NCBI RefSeq assembly: GCF_003751225.1
Contig: NZ_RJKE01000001.1
Span: forward strand, 5,456,001-5,520,000
Length of the DNA: 64,000 bases
DNA from: Actinocorallia herbida
Lineage (GTDB): Bacteria; Actinomycetota; Actinomycetes; Streptosporangiales; Streptosporangiaceae
Direction: 5' to 3'
Shown here: piece by piece, positions 2,460 through 20,433 of the stretch
Position numbering within the stretch: the first letter of the stretch is position 1
Layout: each line of letters starts with the position of its first letter
Program-made: the position numbers and the translations under genes
The notes under the pieces: model-generated
Told to the model about the DNA's origin: nothing
The model's database searches: none
Seen by the model: only the letters and a program-made list of their open reading frames with translations

Positions 2460-4013
2460 TCAGTTCCCCTTGCTGAACATGGTGAGCATGCGCCGGGTCA
2501 CCGCGAAGCCACCGAAGATGTTGATGGAGGCCAGCAGGATCGCCACCCCGGCGAGGACCTGGATCAGCGGCACGTCGAGGCCGACCTGGACGAGCGCGCC
2601 GACGACGATCACGCCGGAGACGGCGTTCGTGACGCTCATCAGGGGCGTGTGCAGGGCGTGGTGGACCTTGCCGATCACGTAGTAGCCGATCACGACGGCC
2701 AGCGTCAGCACGGTGAAGTGCTGCGGGATCGGGGCTGGCGCGAAGGCGGTGACCAGGCCGAACAGGCCGGTGGCGGTGAAGACCATGGCGAGCTTCGCGG
2801 CGGCCGACAGCGGCTTCTTCTCCCGCCCGACCGGTGCCTCCGCCTGGGCGGGCGCCGCGGCGGGGGCGGCGCTGATCTGGACCGGGGGCGGCGGCCACAG
2901 CGTCTCGCTCCGCCCCCACCCGGTGGCGCGCACGACGGTCATGCCGCGCTGGACGACGTCGTCCAGGTCGAGGACGACCTCGCCGTCCTTGTCCGGTGTG
3001 AGCAGTTTCAGCAGGTTGACGATGTTCGTGCCGTACAGCTGGCTGGCCTGGGTGGGCAGCCGGCCCGCGAGGTCGGTGTAGGCCAGGATCGTCACGCCGC
3101 CCTCGGTGACGATCTTCTCGCCGGGGACGCTGCCCTCGACGTTGCCGCCCATCGCGGCGGCCATGTCCACGATCACCGACCCCGGCTTCATCGCGGCCAC
3201 ATCGGCCGCCGTGATCAGCCTCGGCGCGGGACGGCCGGGGATCAGCGCGGTGGTGATGACGATGTCGACGTCGGCGGCCTGGTCCGCGTAGAGCTTCGCC
3301 GCGGCCTCGTCGTAGAGCTCCGAGGTCGCCTTGGCGTAGCCGTCGCTGGACTGCTGGGCCTCTTCGTCGACCAGCACGGGCAGGAACTCCCCGCCCAGGG
3401 ACTTCACCTGCTCGGCCACCTCAGGGCGCGGGTCCGTCGCCCGCACGATGGCGCCCAGGCTGGAAGCCGCACCGATCGCGGCCAGCCCCGCCACACCGGC
3501 ACCCGCGACCAGCACCTTCGCCGGAGGCACCTTGCCGGCCGCGGTCACCTGACCGGTGAAGAAACGGCCGAACTCGTGCGCGGCCTCCACCACCGCCCGG
3601 TAGCCGGCGATGTTCGCCATGCTCGACAGGACGTCGAGGGACTGGGCCCGGCTGATCCGCGGCACCGCGTCCATCGCCAGCGCCGTGACATCCCGTGCCG
3701 CCAGCTCGTCCACGAGATCGGGATTGAGCGCCGGAGCGAGCGTCGAGATCAGCAGCGCGCCCTCCTTGAGCCTGCCCGCCTCGCCGACCGCCGGACCGTT
3801 GACGCGCAGGACGACGTCCGCGCCCCACCCGTCCTCGGCGGTGCCGATTCCGGCCCCGGCCTCGATGTACGCCGCGTCGGTGAACGCGGAGAGCGCACCG
3901 GCCCCGGCCTCGACCACCACGTCGTATCCCAGCCCGACGAGTTGACGGACGGTGGCGGGCGTCGCGGCGACGCGCGTCTCCCCCGTCTGCTCGCGGGTCA
4001 CTCCTATGAGCAT
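2460..4013 (-). CDS. pntA: NAD(P) transhydrogenase subunit alpha (fused A1+A2)
   Basis: This is the NAD(H) domain plus membrane anchor of transhydrogenase. Residues 1-370 are the alanine dehydrogenase/PNT-type domain, starting [19 protein letters not shown] and containing the Rossmann motif [14 protein letters not shown] proline/alanine-rich linker follows at about 370-395, then several hydrophobic helices to residue 517. The single-chain form resembles E. coli PntA; many actinobacteria split it into pntAa and pntAb. It is the first gene of the pntAB operon and ends one base before the pntB start. Confidence 0.95.
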
Positions 4014-4121: not shown

Positions 4122-5108
4122 TCAGTACAGGAGGAGCGGGTTGATCAGCACGCCGGTGGACCGGTGGATCGCCGTCGGCGCGGCGACGAGCAGGCCCGTC
4201 GACGTGCCCGCGGCCTTCAGCTGGGCGGCGGCGGGGCCGAGGAGGCAGTTGTCGACGAGGCAGAGCCCGATCGCGTAGATCAGGTTGTGCACTTCGAGCG
4301 AGCCGGACGGGTTGTCGCGCGCGTCGTGGAAGTCCCAGAGCACCAGGCCGGGGTCCTGCTCCGCGATCCACTGGGCGCCGTCCTCGCCGATGCCGGGACG
4401 GCGGACGGCGGCGGCGCCGCTGGGGTACACGTGGCCCGCGGCCTCGTACCGGTCGCGGCCCTGGTAGATGATCAGGGCGTCGCCCGGTTCGAGCGTCACG
4501 CCCGCCGCGGCGACCGCCGCGTCCAGTTCGGCGGCCGTCACCGGTTCCTCCGCGGCGATCCACTCCACGCCCCGGACGGCGGTGACGTCGAGCAGCACGC
4601 CGCGGGTCGCGATGCCGTGCTGCGCCCAGTTGACCATCGTGTCCTCGTCGGTCTCCGAGGCCGAGGCGGGGATGGGGCCGTGCCAGCTGGCATCCGCGCC
4701 GATGTGCGCGAGCCCGTCGAGATGGGTGTTGTGGACGCCGTGCGCGTCGTACTTGATCACGTCGCCGCCGTGCGCGTAGCGGCCGTGCAGGCCGATCTGC
4801 ACCTCGAGTTCGACGCCGCCGTGGCCGTCGGGCATTTCCGCCATGCCCAGCCGCTGCCAGTCGCGCTTCTCCGCCTCGGCCGCCTCCCGGCGCTGCTTGA
4901 GGACCGCGGGTCGGGTCTCGACCTCGCGTTCGAGCGAGATCGCCCTTCCGAGCTTGACCTGGGCCACGCCGCGCAGGCGGGCCGCCTCGTCGATGAGCGC
5001 CACCGAGCCGCGGCACTGGGCCTCTTCGGCGTGGCGGGCGGCGTCGTGCGCGTTCCCGATCTTACGCAGCCAAGGGGCGAGCGGATCGGGCCCGAGGTCG
5101 TCTGTCAT
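4122..5108 (-). CDS. Cyclase-family metal-dependent hydrolase (kynurenine formamidase-like)
   Basis: The 328-residue product carries the cyclase-family (PF04199) metal signature, here N127-T-H129-L-D131-G-L-A-H135, which corresponds to the usual HxGTHxDxPxH. Family members hydrolyse amides, lactones or cyclic ketones, so ring or lactone opening is a plausible role beside the oxygenases. An in-frame ATG exists at 5156, but I chose 5108. It has AGGGAG six bases upstream, and it puts the shared upstream element at 5182 the same distance away as in the 16-kb twin promoter. It is divergent from the P450 operon. The substrate is unknown. Confidence 0.8.
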   Translation of the reverse strand: MTDDLGPDPLAPWLRKIGNAHDAARHAEEAQCRGSVALIDEAARLRGVAQVKLGRAISLEREVETRPAVLKQRREAAEAEKRDWQRLGMAEMPDGHGGVELEVQIGLHGRYAHGGDVIKYDAHGVHNTHLDGLAHIGADASWHGPIPASASETDEDTMVNWAQHGIATRGVLLDVTAVRGVEWIAAEEPVTAAELDAAVAAAGVTLEPGDALIIYQGRDRYEAAGHVYPSGAAAVRRPGIGEDGAQWIAEQDPGLVLWDFHDARDNPSGSLEVHNLIYAIGLCLVDNCLLGPAAAQLKAAGTSTGLLVAAPTAIHRSTGVLINPLLLY

Positions 5109-5423
5109 CTCATGCTCCCTGTCTTCCAGGAGGTCTCGCCACCCGAAGTCCATCACGTCTAACAGAACGTCAGAACGCTACAACGCAACACTCGGAGGAT
5201 TCTGCCCGCGCCCGGAAGCGTCTGTCAACGGCTCAGCCAGCGGCACATGGGGGCCGCAAGAAGACGGCACTCCTTGACACTCGGTACAGATGGGATCATT
5301 CTATGTCTAGCGCACAACCGTACGTGTGTTCGGTAGAACGAAACGACGGGGAGCCGGTATGACTTAAGGGGTGACGGCTCGGTCGCAGAGCCGGAACACA
5401 CACCTTCCAGGAAAGGGGTACGG
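5109..5423. promoter_or_regulatory. Divergent promoter region, cyclase / P450 operon
   Basis: For the P450 operon a plus-strand promoter TTGACA (5274-5279), 17-base spacer, CATTCT (5297-5302) is visible. Downstream of it lies the palindrome GTTC-GGTA-GAAC (5328-5339), next to ACGTGTGTTC and AACGAAACG. On the cyclase side the element AACGCAACACTC (5182-5193) is followed by ATTCTG (5199-5204). The same set, with nearly the same spacing, occurs at 16072-16382, which suggests one regulator for both. Confidence 0.6.
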
Positions 5424-6713
5424 ATGAGCACCGTGGAGATCGACCCGACGGCGATCGACTTCTTCACCGACGCCGAGGTCGCCGAGAACACGGCGCCCTA
5501 CTTCGATCACATGACCGCCAACCACCCGGTGTGGCGCGAGTCGAAGTACGGCGTCGTGATCGTCACCGGGTACGAGGAGGCGCTGAAGGTCTACCACCAC
5601 CCGGAGATCTACTCCTCGATCAACCGGACCGGCGGGCCCGTCCTGGACCTCCCGTTCGAGCTCGTCGGCGACGATCTGACGGAGCTCCTCGAGCAGTACC
5701 GGGAGCACTTCCCGCAGAACGACCAGATCGTGACGTTCGACCCGCCGATGCACACCGATCACCGGGCGCTGCTGATGGGCCTGATCACGCCCAAGCGGCT
5801 CAAGGAGAACGAGGAGTTCCTCAAGGTCACCGCGGACCGCTTCCTCGACGAGCTCCTGCCCGCGGGGCAGAGCGAGTTCATCTGGGGATACGCGAAGCGG
5901 TACGCCATCCTCGCGGTCGCCGACCTGCTCGGGGTGCCCGAGAGCGACCACCCGATGCTGATCGAACTGCTGGCCACCAAGGGACCGGTCCTCGGGAACC
6001 TGAAGCTGCAGACCTCCCACCACAACACCCTCGAGCGGCTGTACGGCTACTTCATCGAGAAGATCGAGGAGCGGCGCGCGAACCCCACCGAAGACATCCT
6101 CACCGGGATGGCGCTGGCCACCTTCCCCGACGGCACGCTCCCCGAGCCGATCGACGTCGCCCGGATCGCCTCGAACCTCTTCGCGGCCGGCAACGAGACG
6201 ACGGTCCAGCTGCTCGGCATCTCCCTCGCCCGGCTCGCCGAGGACCAGCCGCTCCAGGACCTGCTGCGCGAGAACACGGCGCTGATCCCGAAGTTCATCG
6301 AGGAGGTCCTGCGGATCGAGGCCCCGATCCGGGGCTCGTTCCGCCTCACCAAGGTCGCGACCAGCATCGGCGGTCTCGACCTGGCGCCCGGCACCGTCGT
6401 CATGCTCCTGCACGGCGCGGCGGGCCGCGACGCGCGGGTCTTCGACAACCCGGCCGAGTTCGACGTCAATCGCGCTAACGCCCGGCAGCACCTCGCGTTC
6501 GGCCGCGGCATCCACACCTGCCCCGGCGCCCCGCTCGCCCGCGCGGAAGCGGTGTTCTCCCTCCGGCGGCTGCTGGAGCGCACCGAGCGCATCGAGCTGT
6601 CCGAGGAGCACCACGGCCCGGCCGGCGACCGCCGCTGGGACGTCATGCCCAGCTACAAGTTCCGCGGCCACAACACCCTCCACCTCACCTACACCGAGCG
6701 GGAGGGCAACTGA
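5424..6713 (+). CDS. Cytochrome P450 (bacterial class I)
   Basis: The 429-residue soluble P450 has the I-helix oxygen-activation motif A255-G-N-E258-T-T260 and the haem loop FGRGIHTCPG with the axial ligand Cys366. It should hydroxylate a hydrophobic substrate with electrons from the ferredoxin encoded immediately downstream. The ATG at 5424 follows AGGAAAGG. The stop TGA (6711-6713) shares its last base with the ferredoxin ATG. It heads an operon running to 9714 (P450, ferredoxin, DUF35, thiolase-fold enzyme, CoA-transferase), which points to catabolism of an oxidised acyl or alicyclic compound. CYP family not assigned. Confidence 0.95.
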   Translation: MSTVEIDPTAIDFFTDAEVAENTAPYFDHMTANHPVWRESKYGVVIVTGYEEALKVYHHPEIYSSINRTGGPVLDLPFELVGDDLTELLEQYREHFPQNDQIVTFDPPMHTDHRALLMGLITPKRLKENEEFLKVTADRFLDELLPAGQSEFIWGYAKRYAILAVADLLGVPESDHPMLIELLATKGPVLGNLKLQTSHHNTLERLYGYFIEKIEERRANPTEDILTGMALATFPDGTLPEPIDVARIASNLFAAGNETTVQLLGISLARLAEDQPLQDLLRENTALIPKFIEEVLRIEAPIRGSFRLTKVATSIGGLDLAPGTVVMLLHGAAGRDARVFDNPAEFDVNRANARQHLAFGRGIHTCPGAPLARAEAVFSLRRLLERTERIELSEEHHGPAGDRRWDVMPSYKFRGHNTLHLTYTEREGN

Positions 6714-6910
6714 TGGCAGCCGAGATCACGGTCGACCGCGACCGGTGCATGGGCTCCGGGCAGTGCACCTTCTACGCACCCAACACCTTCGACCTCGATG
6801 ACTCCGACATCGCGGTCGTCACGGATCCGCACGGCGACAGCGACGAGAAGATCAAGATGGCCATCACCGTGTGCCCGACCCGGTCCATCGAGCGCGTCGC
6901 CCCCGAATAG
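6713..6910 (+). CDS. Single-cluster ferredoxin, P450 partner (Ser at the variable position)
   Basis: This 65-residue ferredoxin has the reduced motif C-M-G-S-G-Q-C followed by VCPT near the C-terminus, so only three cysteines occupy cluster positions and the usual fourth is Ser. Mycobacterial P450 ferredoxins of the C-x2-X-x2-C-xn-CP type hold a [3Fe-4S] or unusual [4Fe-4S] cluster. Its ATG overlaps the P450 stop by one base, so expression is coupled. The electron source is probably the reductase at 14845-16071 or FprA at 24859-26181. Confidence 0.93.
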   Translation: MAAEITVDRDRCMGSGQCTFYAPNTFDLDDSDIAVVTDPHGDSDEKIKMAITVCPTRSIERVAPE

Positions 6911-6928
6911 AAGACACGAAGGAGCGGC

Positions 6929-7321
6929 ATGACCGTCCAACCCGAGGCGCAGATCTCCGCGCCCATCGCCGACCTGGAGAGCGACAGCCTCCTCGGCGAC
7001 TTCCCCGAAGGCCCGCGCCTCGTCGGGACACTGTGCGCGCAGTGCGGCCAGACGATGATCGGCACCCGGGTCGCGTGCAGCACGTGCGTCAGCCGTGACG
7101 TCTCGCGCATCGCGCTCCCGGCGACCGGGGTCCTGTACTCCTTCACCCGGCTCCACGTCGGCGGCACCGACGTCCGCCCGATCGGCTACGTGGACCTCGA
7201 CGACGGCGTGCGCACGCTCGCCGATCTCCGCGAGGACGGCGCGCCCCTCCAGCCCGACGTCCGCGTCGCCCTCGGGGTCGACGGCGACGGCTGGTTCTTC
7301 GCCCCCGCCGCCGACGACTGA
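6929..7321 (+). CDS. DUF35 zinc-ribbon/OB-fold protein, thiolase partner
   Basis: The 130-residue product has a zinc ribbon (C36-x2-C39 and C50-x2-C53) followed by an OB-fold ending in GWFFAPA. DUF35 proteins pair with thiolase-fold enzymes; in steroid side-chain catabolism the Ltp2 aldolase needs its DUF35 partner for activity. The thiolase-fold gene begins 15 bases downstream, which fits a two-subunit enzyme. The start at 6929 is preceded by GAAGGAG. Confidence 0.85.
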   Translation: MTVQPEAQISAPIADLESDSLLGDFPEGPRLVGTLCAQCGQTMIGTRVACSTCVSRDVSRIALPATGVLYSFTRLHVGGTDVRPIGYVDLDDGVRTLADLREDGAPLQPDVRVALGVDGDGWFFAPAADD

Positions 7322-7336
7322 TCAAGGAAGACCCCC

Positions 7337-8485
7337 ATGACTGAGAACGTGTACGTCGTCTCGGCGGCGATGATCCCCTTCGGCAAGCACCGGACCTCCT
7401 CCTACGTGGGTCTCGCGGTGTCGCCGCTCATCGACGCCCTCCAGAGCGCCGGCGTCCAGAAGTCCGACGTCGACGCCGTCTACGTCGGCCACGCCTACGG
7501 CGGCATGATGACGGGCCAGCGGATCACCAAGGAGATCGGCCTCGGCACCGTCCCCACCGTCAACATCGACAACGCCTGCTCGGGCGGCGCGACCGCGCTG
7601 CACGAGGCGTGGATGGCCATCGGCCAGGGCCTCATCGACGTCGCCGTCGTCATCGGCGTCGAGAAGCTGACGCAGTTCGGCGGAGGCACCCTGCCGCTGT
7701 CCCCCGAGGACCGCGAGGTCAAGCAGGGCATCGTCATGCCGGCCGTCTACGCGATGCGCGCGACCCGCTACCTGCACGACACCGAGGCGACGGTCGAGGA
7801 CCTCGCGCTGGTCAGCGTGAAGGCGCGCAGGCACGGCGCGCTGAACCCCTTCGCGCAGTTCCGCAAGGAAGTCACCGTCGAGGAGGTCCTCGCGGCGCGG
7901 TCCATCGCCGATCCCCTGACCCTGCTCATGTGCTGCCCGACCGGGGACGGCGCCGCCGTCATCGTGCTGGCCTCCGAGCGCGCCAGGAACCGCCTGGGCA
8001 CTCCGCGCGGCATGCGGGTCGCGGCGTCGGTCCTGCACTCGGGCCAGGTCGCCGAGGGGTACCGGGACATGACGAAGCCGGAGATCACCTACGAGTCGGC
8101 GCACGACGCCTACGCGCAGGCCGGGATCGGTCCCGGCGAGCTGGACATGATCGAGACGCATGACGCGTTCTCGATCGCCGAACTCGTCTACTACGAGGCG
8201 CTCGGCCTGACGGAGAAGCAGAGCGCGGTGGCGCTCCTGCGCGACGGCAGGACGACCTTCGGCGGCGATGTCGTGGTGAACCCGAGCGGCGGCCTCCTCG
8301 CCAAGGGCCACCCGGTCGGCGCGAGCGGCGTCGCCCAGGTCGCCGAGGCGTTCTGGCAGCTCACCGGCCAGGCCGGCGCGCGGCAGGTCACGGACGCGCG
8401 CTGGGCCCTGACGCACGTCACCGGCGGCGGCACCGCCGGACTGGACCACGGCGCGTGCACGATCCACATCTTCGAGGCGGCATGA
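7337..8485 (+). CDS. Thiolase-fold (lipid-transfer-type) enzyme, possible retro-aldolase
   Basis: The 382-residue protein has the thiolase nucleophile region DNAC81SGG, an E-T-H275-D-A-F segment in place of NEAF, and GHP at 324-326. The C-terminal CxG cysteine of true thiolases is absent: the position reads VTGGG (361-365). With the adjacent DUF35 gene, this resembles the SCP-x/Ltp group, which includes steroid side-chain retro-aldolases (Ltp2) as well as thiolases. It probably cleaves a C-C bond in an acyl-CoA, either thiolytically or by retro-aldol. It overlaps the CoA-transferase start by ATGA. Confidence 0.85.
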   Translation: MTENVYVVSAAMIPFGKHRTSSYVGLAVSPLIDALQSAGVQKSDVDAVYVGHAYGGMMTGQRITKEIGLGTVPTVNIDNACSGGATALHEAWMAIGQGLIDVAVVIGVEKLTQFGGGTLPLSPEDREVKQGIVMPAVYAMRATRYLHDTEATVEDLALVSVKARRHGALNPFAQFRKEVTVEEVLAARSIADPLTLLMCCPTGDGAAVIVLASERARNRLGTPRGMRVAASVLHSGQVAEGYRDMTKPEITYESAHDAYAQAGIGPGELDMIETHDAFSIAELVYYEALGLTEKQSAVALLRDGRTTFGGDVVVNPSGGLLAKGHPVGASGVAQVAEAFWQLTGQAGARQVTDARWALTHVTGGGTAGLDHGACTIHIFEAA

Positions 8486-9714
8486 CCACGATCATCGAGC
8501 GCCCGCCGCTGGAAGGCCTGCGCGTCCTCGATCTCACCACCTTTCTCTCCGGGCCTTCGGCGACCCAGCTGCTGGGGGACCTGGGCGCGGAGATCATCAA
8601 GGTCGAATCCCTCGACGGCGATTCGAGCCGGGCGATCGTCGGGCCGACGGTGCTCGGGGAGACCGCCTACTTCCTCGCCAACAATCGCAACAAGCGAAGC
8701 GTTGCGATCAACCTGAAGTCGCCACGGGGCCTCGAGGTGCTGAAGCGCCTGATCTCCCGCGTCGACGTGGTCATCGAGAACTTCCGGCCGGGGGTCACCG
8801 CGCGCCTCGGCATCGATCCGAAGACGATCACCGCGGAGCAGCCCGCGCTCATCTGGGCCTCCATCAGCGGCTTCGGACAGGACGGGCCGCTGCGCGACCG
8901 GCCGGCCTACGACATGATCGTGCAGGCGCTCAGCGGGGTGATGAGCCTCAACGGCCATCCCGGATCCCCGGCCGCCCGGCTCGGGATCCCGGCGGGCGAC
9001 GTCGTGGCGGGCCTGTACGCCGTGATCGGCCTCCTCGCCGCCCTCGACGCCCGCCACAAGACGGGCCGGGGCAGGATCATCGACGTCTCGATGCTCCGCG
9101 GCCAGCTCTCCATGCTGTCCTACCAGGCCCTTTACACCTCGCTCAAGGGTGTTGCCCCGGGCCCGCAGGGGGCCGGCCACGACTCGATCGCCACCTACCG
9201 CTCCTTCCGGGGCGGCGACGGGCGGGAGTTCGTGGTCACCGCGAACACGCCGCGGATGTGGGAGGGCCTCTGCCGCGTCCTGGGCGTCGGCGAACTGGTC
9301 GGTGACGAGCGCTTCCTGGACGCCGCGAGCCGGCTCAGGAACAAGGAGGCGCTCTGGGAGATCCTGGAGGCGCGGTTCGCCGAGCGCCCCGCCGCCGAAT
9401 GGATCGACCTGCTGGCCGAGGCATCCGTTCCCGTCGCCTCGGTGAAGAACGTCCTCGAAGCGCTCACCGACGCCCGGGCCGCCAAGGACGGCAGCATGGT
9501 CCTCGTCGAGAGCGACGAGGCCTCCTTCGAGAACGTCGCGACCCCCATCCGCTTCGTCGACACCGAAGACGTCCCGCCGACCTACCCCCCGGCCCTCGGC
9601 GGCGACACCTTCGACATCCTCGTCGGCGAACTCGGCATCCCCGAAGCGGAGCTGGAGTCCTTGATCGCCGACCGCGTCGTCATCGCGACCCCCCAGAAGG
9701 AACGCGTCGCGTAA
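8482..9714 (+). CDS. CaiB/BaiF family (class III) CoA-transferase
   Basis: The 410-residue product belongs to the formyl-CoA transferase fold. It shows LRVLDLTTFLSGPSATQLLGD at the start, the NKRSVAINLKSPRG loop, and GIPAGDVVAGLYAV, where the Asp is the expected catalytic residue forming the acyl anhydride. It would move CoA between carboxylic acids and so activate the pathway acid without ATP. I chose ATG 8482 because it overlaps the upstream stop as ATGA; an in-frame start nine codons earlier lies inside the previous gene. Last gene of the P450 operon. Confidence 0.9.
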   Translation: MTTIIERPPLEGLRVLDLTTFLSGPSATQLLGDLGAEIIKVESLDGDSSRAIVGPTVLGETAYFLANNRNKRSVAINLKSPRGLEVLKRLISRVDVVIENFRPGVTARLGIDPKTITAEQPALIWASISGFGQDGPLRDRPAYDMIVQALSGVMSLNGHPGSPAARLGIPAGDVVAGLYAVIGLLAALDARHKTGRGRIIDVSMLRGQLSMLSYQALYTSLKGVAPGPQGAGHDSIATYRSFRGGDGREFVVTANTPRMWEGLCRVLGVGELVGDERFLDAASRLRNKEALWEILEARFAERPAAEWIDLLAEASVPVASVKNVLEALTDARAAKDGSMVLVESDEASFENVATPIRFVDTEDVPPTYPPALGGDTFDILVGELGIPEAELESLIADRVVIATPQKERVA

Positions 9715-9739
9715 CCCGCCGCACGTCTCCGGATCTTCG

Positions 9740-9774
9740 GGGCCCGGTCCGACCATCCAGCGGACCGGGCCCTT
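9740..9774. terminator. Terminator between CoA-transferase and OYE genes
   Basis: Arms 9740-9750 and 9762-9772 (GGGCCCGGTCC and its complement) pair perfectly around an 11-base loop, followed by TT. The flanking genes converge. Confidence 0.75.
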
Positions 9775-9812
9775 CGCACGTCGCCGTCACCGCCCGGTAC
9801 GGTGCCGCACCT

Positions 9813-10919
9813 TCACCGAGCGAGGGTGGCGGCCGTGCGCTCGTAGGGCCGGTAGGTCAGGTAGCCCTCGTCGCCGCCCTGGTAGAAGGTGGCCTCGTCG
9901 GCCGGGGCGATCGGGGCGCCGGTGCGCAGGCGCTCGACGAGGTCGGGATTGGCGAGATAGGCGCGGCCGAAGCTGATCAGCTCGGCGCCGAGGCCGAGCC
10001 AGTGCTCCGCCGCGGCGAGGTCGGTCTGCGCCGCGCCCATCGGCATCACCGGGTTCATGATGAGCGTGCCCGGCCAGGCCCGGCGCAGGGCGAGCAGGGA
10101 AGGCTCGTCCACCGTCGCCTCCAGGTGGACGTAGGCGAGTCCGAGGCGGGCGAGCTCGCCGAGCAAGGCGGTGTAGAGGCCGAGGACGTCGTCCTCCGCC
10201 ACGCCCCAGAAGGCCGCGCCGGGCGAGAGGCGGATCCCGGTCCTGGAGGCGCCGACGGCCTCGGCGGTGGCGGTCGCGGCCTCGACGGCGAACCGGATCC
10301 GGTTTCGCACCGAGCCGCCGTAGCGATCGGTGCGCAGGTTGGCGTTGGACGAGAGGAACTGCGAGATCAGGTAGCCGTTCGCGCCGTGCAGTTCCACCCC
10401 GTCGAAGCCCGCGTCGACCGCGCGGCGGGCGGCGTCCGCATAGGAGCCTGCGTGTTCGGGCACCTCGTGGGTCTCCAGCGCCCGCGGCACCGGCGCGGGC
10501 CGCGGACCTGCCGGGGTGAACACGGCGCCGACGGCGGGCACGGCCGAGGGCCCGACCGGCTGCGCTCCCGTGGTGTCCGGATGCGAGACCCGGCCTCCGT
10601 GCATCAGCTGGGCGAAGATCCGGCCGCCGTTGGCGTGCACGGCGGCGGTCACCTGGCGCCACGAGTCCGTCTGCGCGTCGGTGTGCAGGCCGGGGGTGCC
10701 CGGGCTCGACTGGCCGATCAGGCTCGGCTGGACCCCTTCGCTGACGATCAGCCCGGCGGTGGCGCGCTGGGCGTAGTAGGCGGCCATCGACGCGGTCGCC
10801 AGTCCTCCGGCGGCGGCGCGCGCCCGCGTCATCGGGGCCATCACCACCCGGTTGGGCAGCGTCAGCCCGCCGAGGCGGTATCCGGTGAGCAGCGTGCTCG
10901 GTGCGGTGGTCGTGGTCAT
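9813..10919 (-). CDS. Old yellow enzyme family NADH:flavin oxidoreductase
   Basis: This 368-residue FMN enzyme has the family N-terminus (LPNRVVMAPMTRARA), LIVSEG, and the H-G-A-N-G-Y-L-I-S-Q-F segment with the RYGGS loop. OYE proteins reduce alpha,beta-unsaturated carbonyls, nitroesters or quinones with NAD(P)H. It diverges from a MerR regulator 129 bases away, which suggests induction by an electrophile. It is not part of the flanking operons; a role in reducing enone intermediates is possible but unproven. Confidence 0.92.
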   Translation of the reverse strand: MTTTTAPSTLLTGYRLGGLTLPNRVVMAPMTRARAAAGGLATASMAAYYAQRATAGLIVSEGVQPSLIGQSSPGTPGLHTDAQTDSWRQVTAAVHANGGRIFAQLMHGGRVSHPDTTGAQPVGPSAVPAVGAVFTPAGPRPAPVPRALETHEVPEHAGSYADAARRAVDAGFDGVELHGANGYLISQFLSSNANLRTDRYGGSVRNRIRFAVEAATATAEAVGASRTGIRLSPGAAFWGVAEDDVLGLYTALLGELARLGLAYVHLEATVDEPSLLALRRAWPGTLIMNPVMPMGAAQTDLAAAEHWLGLGAELISFGRAYLANPDLVERLRTGAPIAPADEATFYQGGDEGYLTYRPYERTAATLAR

Positions 10920-10980
10920 GCGAAGCCCTTCGTTCGAAGTCGCGGACCCTGCTCGCGAGCCCGTCCTTCGGCTACGCTAA

Positions 10981-11016
10981 AACCTCACATTGACGTCAGA
11001 TGCAAGCTATGTGACC
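10981..11016. promoter_or_regulatory. Operator candidate between OYE and MerR genes
   Basis: The gap holds the perfect palindrome TGACGTCA (10991-10998) and outer inverted arms TCACAT (10985-10990) and ATGTGA (11009-11014). On the minus strand TTGCAT followed after about 18 bases by TTTAGC could be the OYE promoter, long-spaced as MerR-type promoters are. Promoter assignment is tentative. Confidence 0.4.
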
Positions 11017-11048
11017 GAGATCTTTCGATTGTTCGACGGGAGGACGCC

Positions 11049-11459
11049 ATGCGGATCGGTGAGCTCGCGGACCGCACCGGGGTGAGTGTCAGGTCGCTGC
11101 GCTACTACGAGGAGCAGGGCCTGCTGCACAGCACCCGCACCACCAGCGGCCAGCGCCGCTACGCCGGCCCCGCGGTGGAACGGGTGCTGTTCCTCCAGCG
11201 CCTGTACGCGGCGGGACTGTCCAGCCGCACCATCGCCGAGCTGCTGCCCTGCGTCGACGCTCCCAGCGAGGACCACTCCGTGGCCGCCCTGGACCGGATG
11301 GAACAGGAGCGCGCGAAGCTCGACGCCCACATCACGGACCTCGTCGGCACCCGGGACGCCCTCGACGCCCTCATGTCCGTCGCCCGCGACGCCCTCGCCG
11401 CCCTGCGCACGCCCGGCCGCCGGCCTGATCACGACAGGTCGGGGGTCACCACGGGATGA
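11049..11459 (+). CDS. MerR family transcriptional regulator
   Basis: The 136-residue protein has the winged helix MRIGELADRTGVSVRSLRYY with EEQGLL, the MerR hallmark, then a coiled-coil dimerisation helix at about 75-125. No cysteine cluster for metals is evident; the only cysteine sits near residue 68. MerR proteins of this small type activate a neighbouring promoter on binding a small molecule. The neighbouring OYE gene is the obvious target. Start supported by GGGAGGACGCC upstream. Confidence 0.92.
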   Translation: MRIGELADRTGVSVRSLRYYEEQGLLHSTRTTSGQRRYAGPAVERVLFLQRLYAAGLSSRTIAELLPCVDAPSEDHSVAALDRMEQERAKLDAHITDLVGTRDALDALMSVARDALAALRTPGRRPDHDRSGVTTG

Positions 11460-11672
11460 CGCCGTCGTCCTCGAAGAACGCACCGGCCGGGCCCCGTCGG
11501 GCCGGCCCCGTTGGTCCTGAGATCGCGCGGCCACCCGGCTGTGACCGGTGCGCAGGCCCTGGTTCCCGAAGCCACGGCGAGGTTCCCCGGGGCGGGGCGG
11601 TTTTTGCCATGGCGGTGCCGCCGCCTGGGCGTTCGCGGGCCTGAACACGGGAACTTCCAGGGAGAGTTGTTC

Positions 11673-11771
11673 ATGCGATGGTCGATCTTCGGGGCCCCGC
11701 ACATGCCGCTGGAACGCCGCGCCGGAGCCCGGGTCCCCAGAAATCGCGGCGGTGATGCCCGGGGGTCGTGA
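11673..11771 (+). CDS. Possible 32-codon leader ORF before the PAS kinase
   Basis: ATG 11673 is preceded by GGGAGAG with about six bases spacing. The frame ends TGA at 11769-11771, sharing its last base with the kinase ATG (TGATG). The peptide is basic and recognised as nothing. The 311-base gap 11460-11770 holds no other gene I can support. It could be a translational-coupling leader, or chance. Confidence 0.3.
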   Translation: MRWSIFGAPHMPLERRAGARVPRNRGGDARGS

Positions 11772-13000
11772 TGGACGAGATGGACTTCTTCGACGTGTTC
11801 GATGCCGCTCCGGTCGCACTGGCGGTGCTGTCGACGGATCTGCGGTTCGTCGCGGTGAACCGGGCCCATGAGGAGTTGTTCGGCCGGTCGCGCGAGCAGT
11901 GCGTCGGCCGTCCCGCCTTCGAGGTGTTCCCGAGTAGGACCTGGCAGCACGGCAAGCAGGCGCTCAAGGAGTCGATGGAGCGGGCGGTGGCCGGCGGGGA
12001 GTGCGGGGCCGAGATCACGCTGATGCAGCGCTACGACATCGAGACGGCGGGCGCGGGAGGGACGTTCGAGGAGAGGTACTGGACCTCGGCCAACTGCCCG
12101 GTGAGGAACCGCGACGGTGAGATCTGCGGCCTGGTCGTGCGGCTGCAGGAGGTGACCTCCTTCGTCGACTCGATGCACGGGCGGGGCAGGTCGGAGTTCT
12201 CCCGTGCCGGACTGTCGCACGCGGCCGCGGTCGAGGCGCAGCTGTTCGCCCAGACCGGGCAGTTGCAGGAGCTCAACCAGCGGCTGCGCAACGCCGAGGC
12301 CCACCACCGCCACCTCGCCGAAGGGCTGCAGGAGATGGTGCGGCATCAGCGCCAGGCGGTCGCCGACACCTCCCATGACCTGCGCAGCCCCCTCACCGGC
12401 CTGCGGACCAGGCTGGAAGACGCCCTCGCCGACCCCGACTGCGACCCCCACGAGATCCTCCAGGCCGCCCTGCACGACGCCGAACGGCTCGGCGACATCA
12501 TCAGCGACCTCCTGGAGCTGGGCCGTCTGGAGTCCGGCGCGCCCGCGGCGACCGAGCCGATCGACCTCGCCCGCCTGCTGCGCACCGAGATCGCCCATCG
12601 CGACCCCGCCACCACGACCACCACCTACCTGACACCCGGCATCGTGGTGGACACCTCGGAGATCCGCCTCACCCGCCTGGTGGACAACCTGCTGGCCAAC
12701 GCCGAACGCCACACCCGCTCCCACATCGACGTGCGCCTCACCACCGATGACGGGCACGCCGTGCTGGAGGTCATCGACAACGGCCCCGGCATCCCCGCCG
12801 CCGACCGGGAGAAGGTCTTCGACCGTTTCTTCCGCCGTCCCGACGCCCGCGCCGCCGACCCGGGCGGCAGCGGCCTGGGCCTGCCGATCTCCCGCCAGAT
12901 CGCCGAAGCCCACGGCGGAACCCTGCTCGCCACCGACCGCGCCGACGGCGTCCCCGGAGCCCGCCTAGTCCTCCGTCTCCCCCTGCACCACCGCCCCTGA
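11771..13000 (+). CDS. Cytosolic PAS-domain sensor histidine kinase (orphan)
   Basis: The 409-residue protein has an N-terminal PAS domain (about 5-115), a coiled coil (about 150-195), and a HisKA box TSH202DLRSPLTGL. The HATPase domain follows with N-box NLLANAERH, DNGPGIP and GGSGLGLPIS. There is no membrane segment, so the signal is intracellular. No response regulator gene adjoins, making it an orphan kinase. A GTG three bases upstream is an alternative start. The PAS ligand is unknown. Confidence 0.9.
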   Translation: MDEMDFFDVFDAAPVALAVLSTDLRFVAVNRAHEELFGRSREQCVGRPAFEVFPSRTWQHGKQALKESMERAVAGGECGAEITLMQRYDIETAGAGGTFEERYWTSANCPVRNRDGEICGLVVRLQEVTSFVDSMHGRGRSEFSRAGLSHAAAVEAQLFAQTGQLQELNQRLRNAEAHHRHLAEGLQEMVRHQRQAVADTSHDLRSPLTGLRTRLEDALADPDCDPHEILQAALHDAERLGDIISDLLELGRLESGAPAATEPIDLARLLRTEIAHRDPATTTTTYLTPGIVVDTSEIRLTRLVDNLLANAERHTRSHIDVRLTTDDGHAVLEVIDNGPGIPAADREKVFDRFFRRPDARAADPGGSGLGLPISRQIAEAHGGTLLATDRADGVPGARLVLRLPLHHRP

Positions 13001-13062
13001 GCGGCGAGGGCCGCAGGGCACCGGCCGTCCGGACCCGGTACCCCGCGGTCGCGGGACGTGCG

Positions 13063-13518
13063 CTACTCGGGGCGGTGGGCGTCGGCGACGGCCTGGATGT
13101 CGGTGAGGAAGCGGAGGACGACGGCGAGATCGGCGTCGGAGTAGGCGGCCAGCGCGGTCAGGGCGTCGGAGATCACGGGGGCGAAGAAGTCCTCGCCGAG
13201 GGCGGTGGCCTGCCCGGTGACCTCGATGAGGACGCGGCGGCGGTCCCGGGGGTCGCGCGCGCGGCGGATGTGGCCGAGGCGCTCCAGCCGGTCGAGGAGG
13301 GCGGTCGTGCCCGCCGAGTTCAGGCCCAGCGCGGCGCCGAGTCGGCCCGGGGTCGCGGGGGCGCCCGAGCGCGCGGCGTCGAGCAGGGCGATCAGCGCGC
13401 GCAGGTCGGTCGGATGGAGGCCGTGGCGGTGCGCGAACGCGGCCCCGAGCAGGTGCAGGTCGACGGTGACGGCCCGCAGCCCGTGCACGACCGGCATCCC
13501 GCGTTCAGCATCGCCCAT
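13063..13518 (-). CDS. MarR family transcriptional regulator
   Basis: The 151-residue winged-helix protein shows the MarR pattern: LHPTDLRALIALL, the recognition helix around LGLNSAGTTALLDRLERLGHI, and the wing RARDPRDRRRVLIEVT. Start 13518 has GAAGGGG upstream; ATG 13545 is in frame but lacks a site. It diverges from an alpha/beta hydrolase, with a clear palindromic operator between. It probably represses that hydrolase and itself until an aromatic or lipophilic ligand binds. Confidence 0.92.
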   Translation of the reverse strand: MGDAERGMPVVHGLRAVTVDLHLLGAAFAHRHGLHPTDLRALIALLDAARSGAPATPGRLGAALGLNSAGTTALLDRLERLGHIRRARDPRDRRRVLIEVTGQATALGEDFFAPVISDALTALAAYSDADLAVVLRFLTDIQAVADAHRPE

Positions 13519-13547
13519 GCCTACCCCTTCCGGTGTCCCGCGCATAT

Positions 13548-13582
13548 TATCTCGTTGAGCGAGATACTTGGCAGGCGAGATA
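13548..13582. promoter_or_regulatory. MarR operator with three half-sites
   Basis: TATCTCG (13548-13554), five-base spacer, CGAGATA (13560-13566) is a perfect inverted repeat. A further direct copy CGAGATA lies at 13576-13582, three bases before the hydrolase ribosome site GGAGGA. All lie between the divergent MarR and hydrolase starts. Confidence 0.75.
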
Positions 13583-13596
13583 TCGGAGGAGAATTC

Positions 13597-14448
13597 GTGG
13601 CCGACGACCCGGCCCGCTTCCGCGCGGCGTACGACGCCGTGCTGGGCCTGTGGGGAACGCCCGTGGAGACCGTCGAGGTCGAATCCGACCACGGCACGAC
13701 GCGGGTCGCCGTCTGCGGCCCGCCCGACGGCGAACCGCTCGTGCTGCTGCACGGCGGCGGCGCCACCTCGGCCGTCTGGTTCGCGAACGCGGCGGAACTC
13801 GGACGGACCCGCCGCGTCTACGCCGTCGACCGGATCGGTGAGCCGGGCCGGAGCACGCCCGGCGCGGGCCGCCCGCGTACCGCGGCCGACCTCCTCGGCT
13901 GGCTCGACACCGTCCTCACCGGCCTCGGCCTGCGCCGCGCCGACCTCTGCGGCCACTCCTACGGGGGCTGGATCGCCCTGGCGTACGCGCTGCGCAGCCC
14001 GGAACGGGTGCGCTCGCTCGTCCTGCTCGACCCCACCCAGTGCCTCGCCGGCTTCCGGGCCGGCTACCTACTGCGCGCGCTCCCGCTGCTGCTGCGCCCG
14101 ACCGCCCGCCGCGCCGAGGAGTTCCTGGCGTGGGAGACGGGCGGCGTCCCCCTCGAACCCGCGTGGGTGCGGCTCTACGGCCTCGCGGCGGAGTTCCCCG
14201 GCACCCGGATCGTCCCCGCCCGCCGCTTCACCCGCCGCGAACTGCGCTCCCTCGCCGTCCCCGCCCTCGTCCTCCTCGCCGGACGCGGCCGGGCCCACGA
14301 CGCCCGCCGCGTCGCAGCCGCCTCCACCCGCCTCCTCCCCGGCGCCCGCACTCGCGTCCTCCCCTCCCTCACCCACCACGCCATCCCCTACACGGACGCC
14401 CCCACCCTCAACCACACCATCCTGGACTTCCTCACCACCCGCCGTTGA
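13597..14448 (+). CDS. Alpha/beta hydrolase
   Basis: The 283-residue protein has the oxyanion HGGG motif (LVLLHGGGATSAVW), the nucleophile elbow GHSYGG, and a catalytic His near the C-terminus (LTHHAIPY). It is likely an esterase, lactonase or C-C hydrolase. The start is GTG 13597 with GGAGGA six bases upstream. Codons toward the 3' end are extremely CCC/CTC-rich. Regulated by the divergent MarR protein through the operator 13548-13582. Confidence 0.88.
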   Translation: MADDPARFRAAYDAVLGLWGTPVETVEVESDHGTTRVAVCGPPDGEPLVLLHGGGATSAVWFANAAELGRTRRVYAVDRIGEPGRSTPGAGRPRTAADLLGWLDTVLTGLGLRRADLCGHSYGGWIALAYALRSPERVRSLVLLDPTQCLAGFRAGYLLRALPLLLRPTARRAEEFLAWETGGVPLEPAWVRLYGLAAEFPGTRIVPARRFTRRELRSLAVPALVLLAGRGRAHDARRVAAASTRLLPGARTRVLPSLTHHAIPYTDAPTLNHTILDFLTTRR

Positions 14449-14509
14449 GCAGAAGCGGCCGGGTGCCGCCCTCCCCCTGGGGCCGGTGAGGCCTACTGGA
14501 GCCCCCCCG

Positions 14510-14743
14510 TCACCACCCGGTGCGGTGCCGCACCCAGTGGAGGGCCGCGGCGGCGGCCCTCGCCTGGTAGGGGCGCAGATTCGGGACGGCGGGCGGGGCG
14601 GGGCAGCGGGCACAGTAGCCCGCGAACGCCACCGCGTATGAGGTGACCGCGTCGCGGGGAACTCCGGTCGCGGCGACCGCTTCACGAAGCGGCGATGGCA
14701 GATCCTCCCAGGCGGCCCTCTGTGCGGTGGCCGTGTTCCCCAT
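14510..14743 (-). pseudogene. Internally deleted aminoglycoside phosphotransferase-like relic
   Basis: The 77-codon frame begins like the N-terminus of actinobacterial APH-family proteins (RAAWEDLPSPLREAVAATG). It then jumps to a typical APH C-terminus (PAPPAVPNLRPYQARAAAAA, ALHWVRHRTGW). The ATP and HxD catalytic regions, about 200 residues, are missing. I read it as a deletion remnant. An intact small protein of unknown role is the alternative. Family assignment rests on recalled sequence patterns. Confidence 0.45.
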
Positions 14744-14844
14744 GGCCAAGGGATACCGCCTCAGGAGGCGGGAAGCCCGGCGGACGCGCGGGATCGGCGG
14801 CCCGGGGCACTTCTAGGAGCGGCCCCGGGACAAGGGGGTGTCGG

Positions 14845-16071
14845 TCAGAGGAGTTTCTGGATGGCGTTGGCGATGTCCTGGGCCGGGGTGGCCGCGGGGA
14901 GGAGGCGGCGGGCCTGGTTGAGGGCGCGGACCCAGTTGACGGTGACGGCCCCGCAGGCGGCGCCGGTGGCGGTGGCGTGGATGACGGCCACCTTGCCGTT
15001 CTCCGCGAGGTCGCCTATGACGAGGGAGGTGCCTTCGGGGTCGCGGCGGCCGAAGGCGTTGACCTTCCAGTCGTACTGGTCGGACCACACGTAGTCGGTG
15101 GGCTCGTAGGCGTCCTGAAGGCCCTTGGTGATGGCCTCGGCGACGTAGCGCGCCTGGTCGCTGGCGTTGGTCCAGTGCTCGGCGCGGACGCCGTGGCCGC
15201 GGCCCGGGTGGGGCCAGTGGGCGACGTCGCCGACCGCATAGACGTCGTCGGCGCCGAGGGCGCGGAGGAAGCCGTCCGTGGCGACGCCGTTGTCGAGGTT
15301 CAGGCCCGAGCCGGCGAGCCAGCCCGTCGAGGGGACGGAACCGATGCCGACGACCACCGTGGAGGCCGGGAGGCGCTCGCCGTTGTCGAGTTCGACGGTC
15401 AGCTCCCCCGGCGTGCCCTCGATCCCCACGACGCCGGCGCCGAACCGGGTCTCGGTGCCGTTGCGGCGGTGCAGGTCGACCAGGCCGCCCGCGATCTCCG
15501 GTCCGACGAGCCGCGCCATCGGCTCCGGCACCGGGTCGACGATCGTGACGGCGCAGCCGTATCCGCGCGCGGCGGCGGCGATCTCGGTCCCGATGAAGCC
15601 GCCGCCGACCACGACGACGGGCTCCCCGAGCGCGAGCCGCGCGGCGATCGACCGCGCGTCGTCCAGGGTCCGCAGCTGGTGGACGCCCTCCGGAAGCCAC
15701 GGGGACGGGCGGGCGGCGGCCCCGGTGGCGATCACCAGCACGTCGTAGGGCACGGTCGTGCCGTCGCCGAGGCGCACGGACCGGGCCGCGGTGTCGAGGC
15801 CGACCGCGGCGGCGCCGAGCCGGAGTTCGACCGCCAGTTCGGCGAACTCGGCGGGGCCGGCCAGCCGGATCTCGTCGACCGACGCCTGCGACCACTCCCC
15901 CTTGAGCAGGCTCTTCGACAGCGGCGGGCGGTCGTAGGGCAGCTCGGCCTCCGCCCCGATGAGGGTGATGGGGCCGGTGTGGCCGAGGGTCCGAAGGCTC
16001 TGCGCGGTCCTCGTCCCGGCGAGCGACGCGCCGACGATGACTACGTGGCGGTGGGCAGCGGCTTCGGTCAT
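14845..16071 (-). CDS. FAD-dependent ferredoxin reductase (rhodocoxin/putidaredoxin reductase type)
   Basis: The 408-residue flavoprotein has the N-terminal FAD motif HVVIVGASLAGTRTAQSLR, an ATG motif (LVIATGAAARP), the NAD motif VVVGGGFIGTEIAAAA, and YAVGDVA for the FAD ribityl site. It should pass electrons from NAD(P)H to the small P450 ferredoxins, completing a class I P450 chain. It diverges from an SDR/CMD operon through a promoter region that closely mimics the one before the P450 operon at 5.1-5.4 kb. That supports joint regulation. Confidence 0.93.
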   Translation of the reverse strand: MTEAAAHRHVVIVGASLAGTRTAQSLRTLGHTGPITLIGAEAELPYDRPPLSKSLLKGEWSQASVDEIRLAGPAEFAELAVELRLGAAAVGLDTAARSVRLGDGTTVPYDVLVIATGAAARPSPWLPEGVHQLRTLDDARSIAARLALGEPVVVVGGGFIGTEIAAAARGYGCAVTIVDPVPEPMARLVGPEIAGGLVDLHRRNGTETRFGAGVVGIEGTPGELTVELDNGERLPASTVVVGIGSVPSTGWLAGSGLNLDNGVATDGFLRALGADDVYAVGDVAHWPHPGRGHGVRAEHWTNASDQARYVAEAITKGLQDAYEPTDYVWSDQYDWKVNAFGRRDPEGTSLVIGDLAENGKVAVIHATATGAACGAVTVNWVRALNQARRLLPAATPAQDIANAIQKLL

Positions 16072-16382
16072 CGTCCGGGTCCTTCGGGGTCTGGGTTGAT
16101 GGGGGCGCGCGCCATGCGACTTCTCTTAAAGAGAACAGGCGGTCCATATAACGCAACATTCCCATTCTGGCCACCCGTCGCCCCAGTGTCAACGAAGTAC
16201 TGCGCGGACGCCCGGATCCCCCACCTACGAGAGCTTGACATCTCACTCTGTGTCACGCCATTCTGGGCAGATCCTCAACAACAGAACACACGTTTCGTTG
16301 TTCGAGGCAAGCTAGGGAAAGATTGGGGACGTATCTCGATGACCAAGGCGCACACCTTCCCGCCCGTTCCGCGAGGTGGCCG
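16072..16382. promoter_or_regulatory. Divergent promoter region, ferredoxin reductase / SDR
   Basis: On the plus strand TTGACA (16235-16240), 18-base spacer, CATTCT (16259-16264), then GAACACACGT (16284-16293) merging into CGTTTCGTTGTTCG. On the reductase side AACGCAACATTC (16150-16161) followed by ATTCTG (16164-16169). An extra palindrome TTCTCTT-A-AAGAGAA sits at 16121-16135. The order and spacing mirror 5109-5423. Confidence 0.6.
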
Positions 16383-17138
16383 ATGACGAGCGCAGGCCGC
16401 GTCGCCGTCGTCACCGGAGGAGCCGCGGGCATCGGCCTGGCGATCTCCGAGCGCCTCGCGCAGGACGGGTTCAAGGTCGCCATCCTCGACGTCGTCGACG
16501 GAGCCGCCGAGCAGGCCGCCAAGTCGATCGAGGCGGCCGGCGGGGTCGCCCGCGGCTACCGCGCCGACGTCAGCGACCGCGCGGCGGTCGACGCGGCGCT
16601 CGCCGAGGCCCGCGCCGAACTCGGGCCGCCGGCCGCCGTCGTGGCCAACGCCGCCGTCGCCCTGCAGCAGTCCTTCCTCGACATGACGCTGGAGCAGTGG
16701 AACGCCACGCTGGCGATCAACCTGACCGGGACGTTCAACGTCGTCCAGTCCGCGCTCCCCGATCTCGTCGAGGCGGGCTGGGGGCGGGTCGTGCTGATCT
16801 CCTCCTCCAGCGCGCAGCGCGGCGCCCCGCGGATGGCCCACTACGCGGCGTCCAAGGGCGGCCAGATGGCCCTGACCAAGGCCCTCGCCGTCGAGTTCGC
16901 CAAGACGGGCGTCACCGTCAACACCGTCGCCCCCTCCTCGATCGACACCCCGAGCGTGCAGAAGAAGCGCGCAGCGGGCGCCATGCCGTCGGCCGAGGAC
17001 ATGGCCAAGTACATCCCCGTCGGGCGGATGGGGACCGGCGCGGACATCGCCGCCGCGGTCGCCTACCTCGCCTCCGACGAGGCCTCCTACGTGACCGGCC
17101 AGACCATCAGTGTCAACGGCGGTTCCTTCATTGGGTGA
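16383..17138 (+). CDS. Short-chain dehydrogenase/reductase (FabG-like)
   Basis: The 251-residue classical SDR has TGGAAGIG for NAD(P) binding, NAAVAL at the NNAG position, a Ser-rich active-site strand (LISSSSAQRG) and Y-A-A-S-K. It oxidises or reduces a hydroxyl/keto group. ATG 16383 has GAGG seven bases upstream; an earlier in-frame ATG at 16323 would add 20 unusual residues. It is followed after four bases by the CMD-family gene. It is likely an alcohol dehydrogenase step of the pathway. Confidence 0.92.
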   Translation: MTSAGRVAVVTGGAAGIGLAISERLAQDGFKVAILDVVDGAAEQAAKSIEAAGGVARGYRADVSDRAAVDAALAEARAELGPPAAVVANAAVALQQSFLDMTLEQWNATLAINLTGTFNVVQSALPDLVEAGWGRVVLISSSSAQRGAPRMAHYAASKGGQMALTKALAVEFAKTGVTVNTVAPSSIDTPSVQKKRAAGAMPSAEDMAKYIPVGRMGTGADIAAAVAYLASDEASYVTGQTISVNGGSFIG

Positions 17139-17142
17139 TCAC

Positions 17143-17748
17143 ATGAACCAGCGGCGTATCCCGCCCCGTCCCGTCGACGACTGGACCGAGGAGGTCGACG
17201 AGGCCTTCTCCGTGCTCCGCGCCCACGTGCCCGGCGGCCAGGCCGCCGCGCCCGGTCCGGCGACCCGGCCGCAGTCCAACATCCTGGGCATCTACGCCTG
17301 GCATCCCGACTTCATCCGCGGCTGGATGCCCTTCTCCAACCACCTGCGCCACTCCACGCTCTCCGACCGGGTGCGCGAGATGGCGATCATCCGGACGACC
17401 TGGCTCGGGTTCGGCGAGTACGAGTGGGCGCAGCACGTGCGGATGAGCCGCGCGGGCGGGTACCTCACCGACGCCGAGATCGACGCGCTGTCCGAGGGCC
17501 CCGACGCGGCCGAGTGGTCCGCGCCGGACGCCGCGATCGTCCGGGCCGTCGACGAGCAGTACGGCGCCAAGAACATCGCGGACGCCACCTGGAGTGAGCT
17601 GGAGGCGCAGTTCTCCCGGGCGCAGCTCCTCGACTTCGTGTTCACCGTGGGCACCTACGACATGCACTGCACCGCGTTCAACGTGCTCGGCCTGGAGCTC
17701 GACGCGGGCATGACGGGATTCCCCGAAGGCCACCGGCGCACCCCCTGA
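17143..17748 (+). CDS. Carboxymuconolactone decarboxylase (CMD) family protein
   Basis: The 201-residue protein has the CMD helical core: REMAIIRTTWLGFGEYEWAQ, then H and VRMSRAGGYLTDAEI. The usual E-x-x-C-x-x-H peroxidase-type cysteine is absent (EYEWAQH), so it is not an AhpD-like peroxidase. Proteins of this subgroup sit in many catabolic operons, but their reaction is not established. It is coupled to the SDR four bases upstream. Confidence 0.85.
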   Translation: MNQRRIPPRPVDDWTEEVDEAFSVLRAHVPGGQAAAPGPATRPQSNILGIYAWHPDFIRGWMPFSNHLRHSTLSDRVREMAIIRTTWLGFGEYEWAQHVRMSRAGGYLTDAEIDALSEGPDAAEWSAPDAAIVRAVDEQYGAKNIADATWSELEAQFSRAQLLDFVFTVGTYDMHCTAFNVLGLELDAGMTGFPEGHRRTP

Positions 17749-20302: not shown

Positions 20303-20330
20303 CATGCTCCTCCAAGGTGATAGCCGCTGG

Positions 20331-20359
20331 ATCTAATCACATGTGCTCATAAGTATCAA
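20331..20359 (-). promoter_or_regulatory. Promoter of the SDR with operator in the spacer
   Basis: On the minus strand TTGATA (20359-20354), a 17-base spacer, and TTAGAT (20336-20331). The spacer carries GCACATGTG in the same register as GCACTTGTG in the opposite promoter. Confidence 0.65.
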
Positions 20360-20399
20360 TGCCCATAGAGCCGGTCTGACCAGCTAAATCCGGTAAGCA

Positions 20400-20428: not shown

Positions 20429-20433
20429 AACGC

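Follow-up and report, generated by a model that had tools for sequence, protein, structure and literature searches.

Two divergent promoters in a catabolic island of Actinocorallia herbida belong to a larger regulon with a tandem operator and a candidate IclR repressor

The stretch of DNA considered here (the window) comprises 64,000 bp of the Actinocorallia herbida genome (NCBI RefSeq assembly GCF_003751225.1, contig NZ_RJKE01000001.1, positions 5,456,001 to 5,520,000) and includes genes for a cytochrome P450, its electron supply and several dehydrogenases. Two of its intergenic gaps, 5109-5423 and 16072-16382, lie between divergent genes and were proposed in a preliminary description to be twin promoters of one regulon, on the basis of shared words seen by eye. 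The comparisons reported here indicate that the two gaps do belong to a real regulon, larger than first proposed, with an operator that appears typical of the IclR family of regulators. The genes concerned are the following, the operons being predicted to be co-transcribed.

1034-2458, minus strand: PntB, transhydrogenase, after PntA on the same strand (Pfam)
2460-4013, minus strand: PntA, transhydrogenase, after the cyclase gene on the same strand (Pfam)
4122-5108, minus strand: PF04199 'putative cyclase' (cyc; Pfam)
5424-9714, plus strand: P450 operon (P450, small Fe-S ferredoxin, OB-fold protein, BbsB-like thiolase, type III CoA-transferase)
14845-16071, minus strand: ferredoxin reductase (FdR; Pfam/NCBIfam)
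16383-17138, plus strand: short-chain dehydrogenase/reductase (SDR1), first gene of the SDR/CMD operon (16383-17748)
17110-17748, plus strand: carboxymuconolactone-decarboxylase-like protein (CMD), second gene of that operon
17861-18571, plus strand: TetR-family regulator, PsrA-like, the rival candidate binder, with no operator unit upstream
23513-24331, minus strand: IclR-family regulator (Pfam, NCBIfam), proposed binder of all operators
about 26502 to 24859, minus strand: second ferredoxin/FAD reductase operon (ferredoxin part read from the translation)

To the right of the TetR gene lie genes for an F420H2-dependent quinone reductase-like protein, a second SDR (SDR2), a type I Baeyer-Villiger monooxygenase (FMO), a glyoxalase-fold protein and the IclR regulator, with SDR2 and FMO forming a further divergent pair. 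The IclR gene probably starts at a GTG, judging by alignment with its Streptacidiphilus counterpart, and its reading frame is open to 24763.

All of the words named in the preliminary description lie where it had placed them. AACGCAACAYTC occurs once per gap (5182 and 16150) and nowhere else in the window, ATTCTG is at 5199 and 16164, and TTGACA-N17/18-CATTCT has no copy in the window beyond the N17 form at 5274 and the N18 form at 16235. GAACACACGT lies at 16284 on the plus and 5331 on the minus strand, and CGTTTCGTT at 16291 on the plus and 5345 on the minus strand. The distances given with them are arithmetically correct (74 and 79 bases from the upstream element to the minus-strand starts, 92 and 85 to TTGACA, and 122 and 119 from the -10 to the plus-strand starts). 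Four of the eight TTGACA hexamers of the window fall within the 626 bases of the two gaps, and each gap also contains a minus-strand promoter that had been overlooked, TTGACA-N18-CAGAAT at 5228-5199 and TTGACA-N17-CAGAAT at 16192-16164, giving each gap two promoter-like sites in divergent arrangement. These two are the best of only three promoter-like matches in a scan of 4900-16600, with 0.3 expected; the plus-strand CATTCT hexamers fell under the limit of that scan and hence are unlisted. ATTCTG is thus the minus-strand -10 read backwards, and AACGCAACA, taken earlier for an upstream element, lies downstream of that -10 and belongs to the minus-strand promoter's operator.

One could argue that the likeness of the two gaps is chance added to generic promoter hexamers. 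Unguided alignment is in line with this and speaks against a shared regulon: the local alignment of the two gaps scores 20, which 150 of 500 dinucleotide shuffles match, and the global score is reached in 215 of 500 shuffles. Hence, evidence from outside the two gaps is required. Across the 9.8 Mb genome, AACNGNACNNNNGTTYNGTW without mismatch occurs in exactly two places, both in these gaps (13 rows at up to one mismatch, against 0 for the reversed control), and so does GTTSCGTTRTAN10GTTCNSTT at up to two mismatches (control 0). Both patterns were composed after the sites had been seen, and an out-of-sample search of the genome, given below, therefore carries more weight. A combined pattern, TTGACA-CAnnnT-AACR, was too loose and was discarded (five rows in four places, only one of them in the two gaps).

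Orthologous loci, the comparison that the preliminary description had suggested, were sought with exact peptide words of the P450 in one genome per species for 84,980 species, a scan that reaches close relatives only. It returned two orthologues, in Streptacidiphilus jeojiense (Streptomycetaceae; 85%) and Arthrobacter sp. B2a2-09 (Micrococcaceae; 77%); a third locus, in Sulfitobacter, was dropped as non-orthologous (32% identity). The orthologous clusters share 64-90% protein identity with the window genes, and 20 window genes were looked for, of which 16 were found in Streptacidiphilus and 13 in Arthrobacter. Gene order varies: about 89 kb separate FdR from SDR1 in Streptacidiphilus, and Arthrobacter has FdR next to an IclR gene. 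Despite the broken-up divergent pairs, the promoter and the sequence after its -10 stay with each gene. In each of the three genomes, both are present upstream of P450, cyc, FdR and SDR1, with Arthrobacter cyc the weakest of the conserved sites (TTGACG, array score 19.2). The claim that both gaps are promoters of one regulon is upheld by this comparison and extended by an operator kept in two other actinobacterial genera.

Four alternating boxes of 8 bp make up the conserved 38-bp array that follows the -10. In it, a 17-bp palindromic unit, GTTCnGTT-N-AACnGAAC, is followed by four bases and a second unit, with unit centres 21 bp apart. AACGCAACA, GAACACACGT and CGTTTCGTT are pieces of this array read on either strand; the shared words are real but represent fragments of one tandem operator in two orientations rather than separate elements. 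A scheme with two operator types, a palindrome and a direct repeat, one per regulator, was given up when both proved to be one array. The promoters and operators of the window are listed here, together with a different motif in the SDR2/FMO gap.

5199-5228, minus strand: promoter TTGACA-N18-CAGAAT of the cyclase gene (then PntA, PntB); TTGACA kept in Streptacidiphilus, TTGACG in Arthrobacter
5152-5189, minus strand: cyclase operator array; boxes 1 and 3 strong, 5 and 6 mismatches to the published IclR consensus
5274-5302, plus strand: P450 operon promoter TTGACA-N17-CATTCT, conserved at both orthologous loci
5307-5344, plus strand: P450 operator array; boxes 2, 3 and 4 strong
16164-16192, minus strand: FdR promoter TTGACA-N17-CAGAAT; FdR of Streptacidiphilus and of Arthrobacter also has TTGACA, amid different neighbouring genes
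16120-16157, minus strand: FdR operator array (array scan, genome model search, box scoring)
16235-16264, plus strand: SDR/CMD operon promoter TTGACA-N18-CATTCT (word search; compared across genomes)
16271-16308, plus strand: SDR operator array; boxes 2 and 3 inverted with N4, absent from the rows of the whole-genome model search
20329-20430: other motif, TSAGCACWNGTGMTTAGAT, with copies at 20349 (minus) and 20410 (plus) in the SDR2/FMO divergent gap, chosen by eye
24405-24442, minus strand: IclR gene array; no TTGACA upstream, absent from the rows of the whole-genome model search
26588-26625, minus strand: further array, upstream of the second ferredoxin/FAD reductase operon, with TTGACA-N17-CACACT at 26655-26627

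Arrays were scanned for in 464 kb of this genome and in contigs of the two other genomes. The scan matrix was built from 14 of the 26 accepted arrays and two IclR units, and only the remaining arrays count as finds; the 21-bp period was first noticed by eye in five cyc/FdR sites and later built into the search. Ten arrays were accepted in this genome, nine in Streptacidiphilus and seven in Arthrobacter, with second units weak in some sites. Six of the ten are new and lie upstream of the IclR gene, upstream of the second ferredoxin/reductase operon, and in two divergent pairs outside the window, namely a major facilitator superfamily (MFS) transporter/aldehyde dehydrogenase pair 8 kb to the left and an MFS transporter/alcohol dehydrogenase pair 45 kb to the right. 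The regulon is accordingly bigger than the two gaps first described and includes four divergent pairs, in which the arrays are 149-159 bp apart, the IclR gene and the second ferredoxin/reductase operon. A strict unit pattern, GTTYNSTTNAANNGAWC, matches the 9.8 Mb genome twice, once upstream of the IclR gene and once at the right-hand MFS promoter, against 0 for the control. The two MFS transporters are paralogous and about 117 kb apart (L063:10425-11889 and L066:5304-6767), and another TetR-like open frame, read from the translation, lies near the left one (L063:8510-9150). Apart from shifted readings of accepted arrays, five places above the shuffled score range were not accepted as operators: 222951 (array score 24.0) and 61498 (19.7) in window numbering, both with no TTGAC promoter upstream, and Streptacidiphilus 91351 (15.0) and 18767 (12.2) and Arthrobacter 105932 (17.5). 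Arthrobacter 55899, 1934 and 79160, with lower array scores, were left out.

Of the 26 arrays, 19 have TTGACA at 24-45 nt upstream (random positions, 0.0009-0.00185) and 22 have a 5/6 match to it there (random positions, 0.028-0.065); of the six arrays newly found in this genome, three have TTGACA. Counted from the first T of TTGACA, the start of the array is 30-39 nt downstream in 18 of the 19 sites and 25 nt downstream in the remaining one; so placed, the array would cover the expected start site, which fits repression. For the out-of-sample search, a sequence-only model was made from the 16 arrays of the two other genomes and run against all 9.8 Mb of this genome. Of its ten rows, the top seven represent six operators of the island (E 3.5e-5 to 0.29), and the other three, which represent two places with E of 0.9 or more, are in open frames that have no TTGAC promoter in their 3 kb loci. 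In the two other genomes, both of which trained the model, 20 of 21 rows fall on the one contig with the cluster. Chance likeness, to which we give virtually no credence, is contradicted by this search together with the TTGACA linkage and the conservation in two other genera.

The product of the IclR-family gene at 23513-24331 is most likely the binder and repressor of the whole set. The main IclR-family motif described by Suvorova and Gelfand 2021 (PMC8222616), GTTYCRYW3RYGRAAC, was used unchanged and at up to two mismatches gives 14 matches in 772 kb, 12 of them inside the 26 arrays, with 3.2 predicted by shuffles. In the three genomes, all four IclR genes have the operator unit upstream and none of the three TetR genes does, and all four IclR proteins have STAHRL in the recognition-helix region in common. 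Two of these IclR genes, of the same group, belong to the Arthrobacter cluster (L054:14000-15050 and L055:2800-3930; about 66% and 64% identical to the window IclR).

A number of results weigh against this reading of the operator set and its regulator. The whole-genome model search, in which 150 of 529 first-look candidates were scored, did not report four of the ten arrays (SDR1, IclR and the aldehyde and alcohol dehydrogenase arrays); the two that lie in the window, SDR1 and IclR, do show up in a window-only search, in which an unexplained lone match at 59046-59071 (E 0.021) ranks beside SDR1. The published consensus fits the set rather than each site: at up to three mismatches, 17 of 48 matches are in arrays, with 28 expected from shuffles; no array is an exact match; and several arrays fit poorly, with at least 4 mismatches in each unit, as in those of the window's cyc gene (5 and 6), the window's IclR gene (6 and 4) and the second Arthrobacter IclR gene (6 and 8). 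As for the units at IclR genes, those of the window and Streptacidiphilus had entered the scoring matrix, one is an array shared with the divergent SDR1, and the last has a score of 13.5 per unit, which shuffled sequences also reach. IclR gene promoters scored alone are without TTGACA. Finally, all three cluster-bearing genomes hold both IclR and TetR, and co-occurrence thus cannot tell the two apart, and the N4-spaced pair of SDR1 sites is similar to the PsrA box, which belongs to a TetR-type regulator.

This resemblance is the starting point for a different assignment, in which the PsrA-like TetR protein (17861-18571) would bind the arrays as AACnGAAC-N4-GTTCnGTT palindromes and be the regulator. 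PsrA is the best NCBIfam match of the protein (62 bits, cut-off 300), its gene lies near SDR1/CMD in all three genomes, and the PsrA box, given as G/CAAACN2-4GTTTG/C (PMC3510223), has an inverted AAC-N4-GTT core like boxes 2-3 and finds its single strict match in 772 kb inside an array (Arthrobacter 53296). However, 25 of the 26 arrays are without a strict box, cyc and most FdR operators have a weak box 2 and instead a direct repeat made by boxes 1 and 3, and none of the three TetR genes has a unit upstream; the 21-bp tandem of 17-bp units is also not mentioned for PsrA in the text of PMC3510223 covered here. The TetR gene is moreover a conserved neighbour of SDR2, and the SDR2/FMO gap (20306-20465) has no array but a different palindrome, TSAGCACWNGTGMTTAGAT, present twice, once per direction, in all three genomes. 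We consider it quite improbable that TetR is the array binder; of the two candidate regulators named earlier, IclR (23513) is favoured over TetR (17861). At a guess, TSAGCACWNGTGMTTAGAT would be the site of the TetR protein.

A division of labour would overlap with this assignment to IclR, with every array under IclR and the SDR2/FMO gap, perhaps together with the N4 palindromes, under TetR, which would make a two-signal switch. Two distinct motifs do recur within one gene cluster, and the SDR1 operators retain strong N4 palindromes in three of three genomes, but the array accounts for the SDR1 site without a second protein, and the SDR2/FMO motif was picked by eye from three gaps. We regard such a switch as unlikely, and a single IclR repressor as the probable explanation of the whole operator set.

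Under the single-repressor explanation, the two gaps are two of four divergent promoter pairs in one catabolic island, where most promoters have a TTGACA-like element, a CAnnnT-type -10 and the 38-bp operator a few bases further on. The IclR protein would bind the operators, with a dimer of dimers on a single face of the DNA as the probable form, and on the array it would cover the start site and repress the P450/ferredoxin/thiolase operon, the cyclase-transhydrogenase operon, ferredoxin reductase, SDR/CMD, the second ferredoxin/reductase operon, the two MFS transporters, the aldehyde and alcohol dehydrogenases and its own gene. A pathway metabolite might then act as inducer and release it. 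The sequence comparisons establish the operators, how they are conserved and that they go with promoters and genes; the identity of the binder, the repression and the inducer are inferred from them. The proposal that the two gaps join the P450 operon to its electron supply is supported.

Box-by-box scores of orthologous promoters are closer across genomes than those of other promoters (mean distance 8.0 versus 9.9; 42 of 5000 label shuffles as low), with part of the likeness being plain sequence ancestry (array identity 62% versus 50%). SDR sites keep boxes 2-3 (3/3), P450 sites boxes 2-4 (3/3), IclR sites boxes 1-2 (2/3 scored), and cyclase and reductase sites boxes 1 and 3 (5/6). This per-gene box use is the basis for a tentative view, possible but on balance doubtful, that one IclR-family regulator reads every half-site arrangement in one genome, with the choice fixed per gene and kept across genera, as if the promoter selected the dimerisation mode and thereby strength or signal response. 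The arrangements would be the group 1 palindrome (IclR gene, boxes 1-2), the group 2 palindrome (SDR, boxes 2-3) and the 21-bp direct repeat (cyclase and ferredoxin reductase, boxes 1 and 3).

What began as a likeness spotted by eye thereby becomes a testable regulon for a catabolic island of transport, P450 with its electron donors, and alcohol and aldehyde dehydrogenases, with the Baeyer-Villiger monooxygenase and thiolase/CoA-transferase near regulon genes and with the IclR protein named as the regulator to test. The operator could serve as a tag for locating further pathway genes, and a single genome offers box arrangements for testing the proposed alternative dimerisation of IclR proteins.

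Among the closest known systems are IclR-family operators. In the text of PMC8222616, IclR-family tandem sites are 18-22 nt apart, and three-box sites join both half-site arrangements. The array unit resembles the group 1 GTT-11-AAC operators described there, the spacing of its centres (21 nt) falls in that range, and catabolic and transport targets are common to both; unlike them, island arrays have up to four boxes, gene-specific box pairs and a P450/Baeyer-Villiger monooxygenase/thiolase island as target. No regulon of such content was found in the text of PMC8222616 covered here, and our literature search found no paper on IclR with P450/CYP150, on a Baeyer-Villiger regulon or on the Arthrobacter strain. 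PcaU, PobR and HmgR, catabolic regulators of the same family, likewise have three-box operators that add an external direct repeat of the half-site to a palindrome (PMC8222616). Their box sequence differs, however, and the island arrays lie downstream of the -10, which suggests repression. PcaU and PobR also activate.

The island is rare and was probably laterally transferred; its patchy spread over Streptomycetaceae and Micrococcaceae suggests such transfer. P450 matches at E 1e-60 are present in 13 of 149 genomes of relatives (the window's own counted), the best outside the window being 54% identical, and the cyclase gene was not seen in any of 29 other fetched P450 loci (flanks of about 1.5 kb). 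Orthologues of IclR and TetR (cut-offs 1e-70 and 1e-45) are absent from the other 395 of 396 sampled genomes of the phylum, and matches to P450, IclR, thiolase and the Baeyer-Villiger monooxygenase in a plasmid collection are each below 60% identity.

Between the two operons, 11040-14448 encodes a MerR regulator, a PAS histidine kinase and an alpha/beta hydrolase; the MerR and PAS kinase genes, the two scored there, have no operator unit upstream. The cyclase has no solved relative at E 1e-5. The closest solved structure of the P450 is CYP150A6, and the thiolase of its operon is close to the benzoylsuccinyl-CoA thiolase BbsB.

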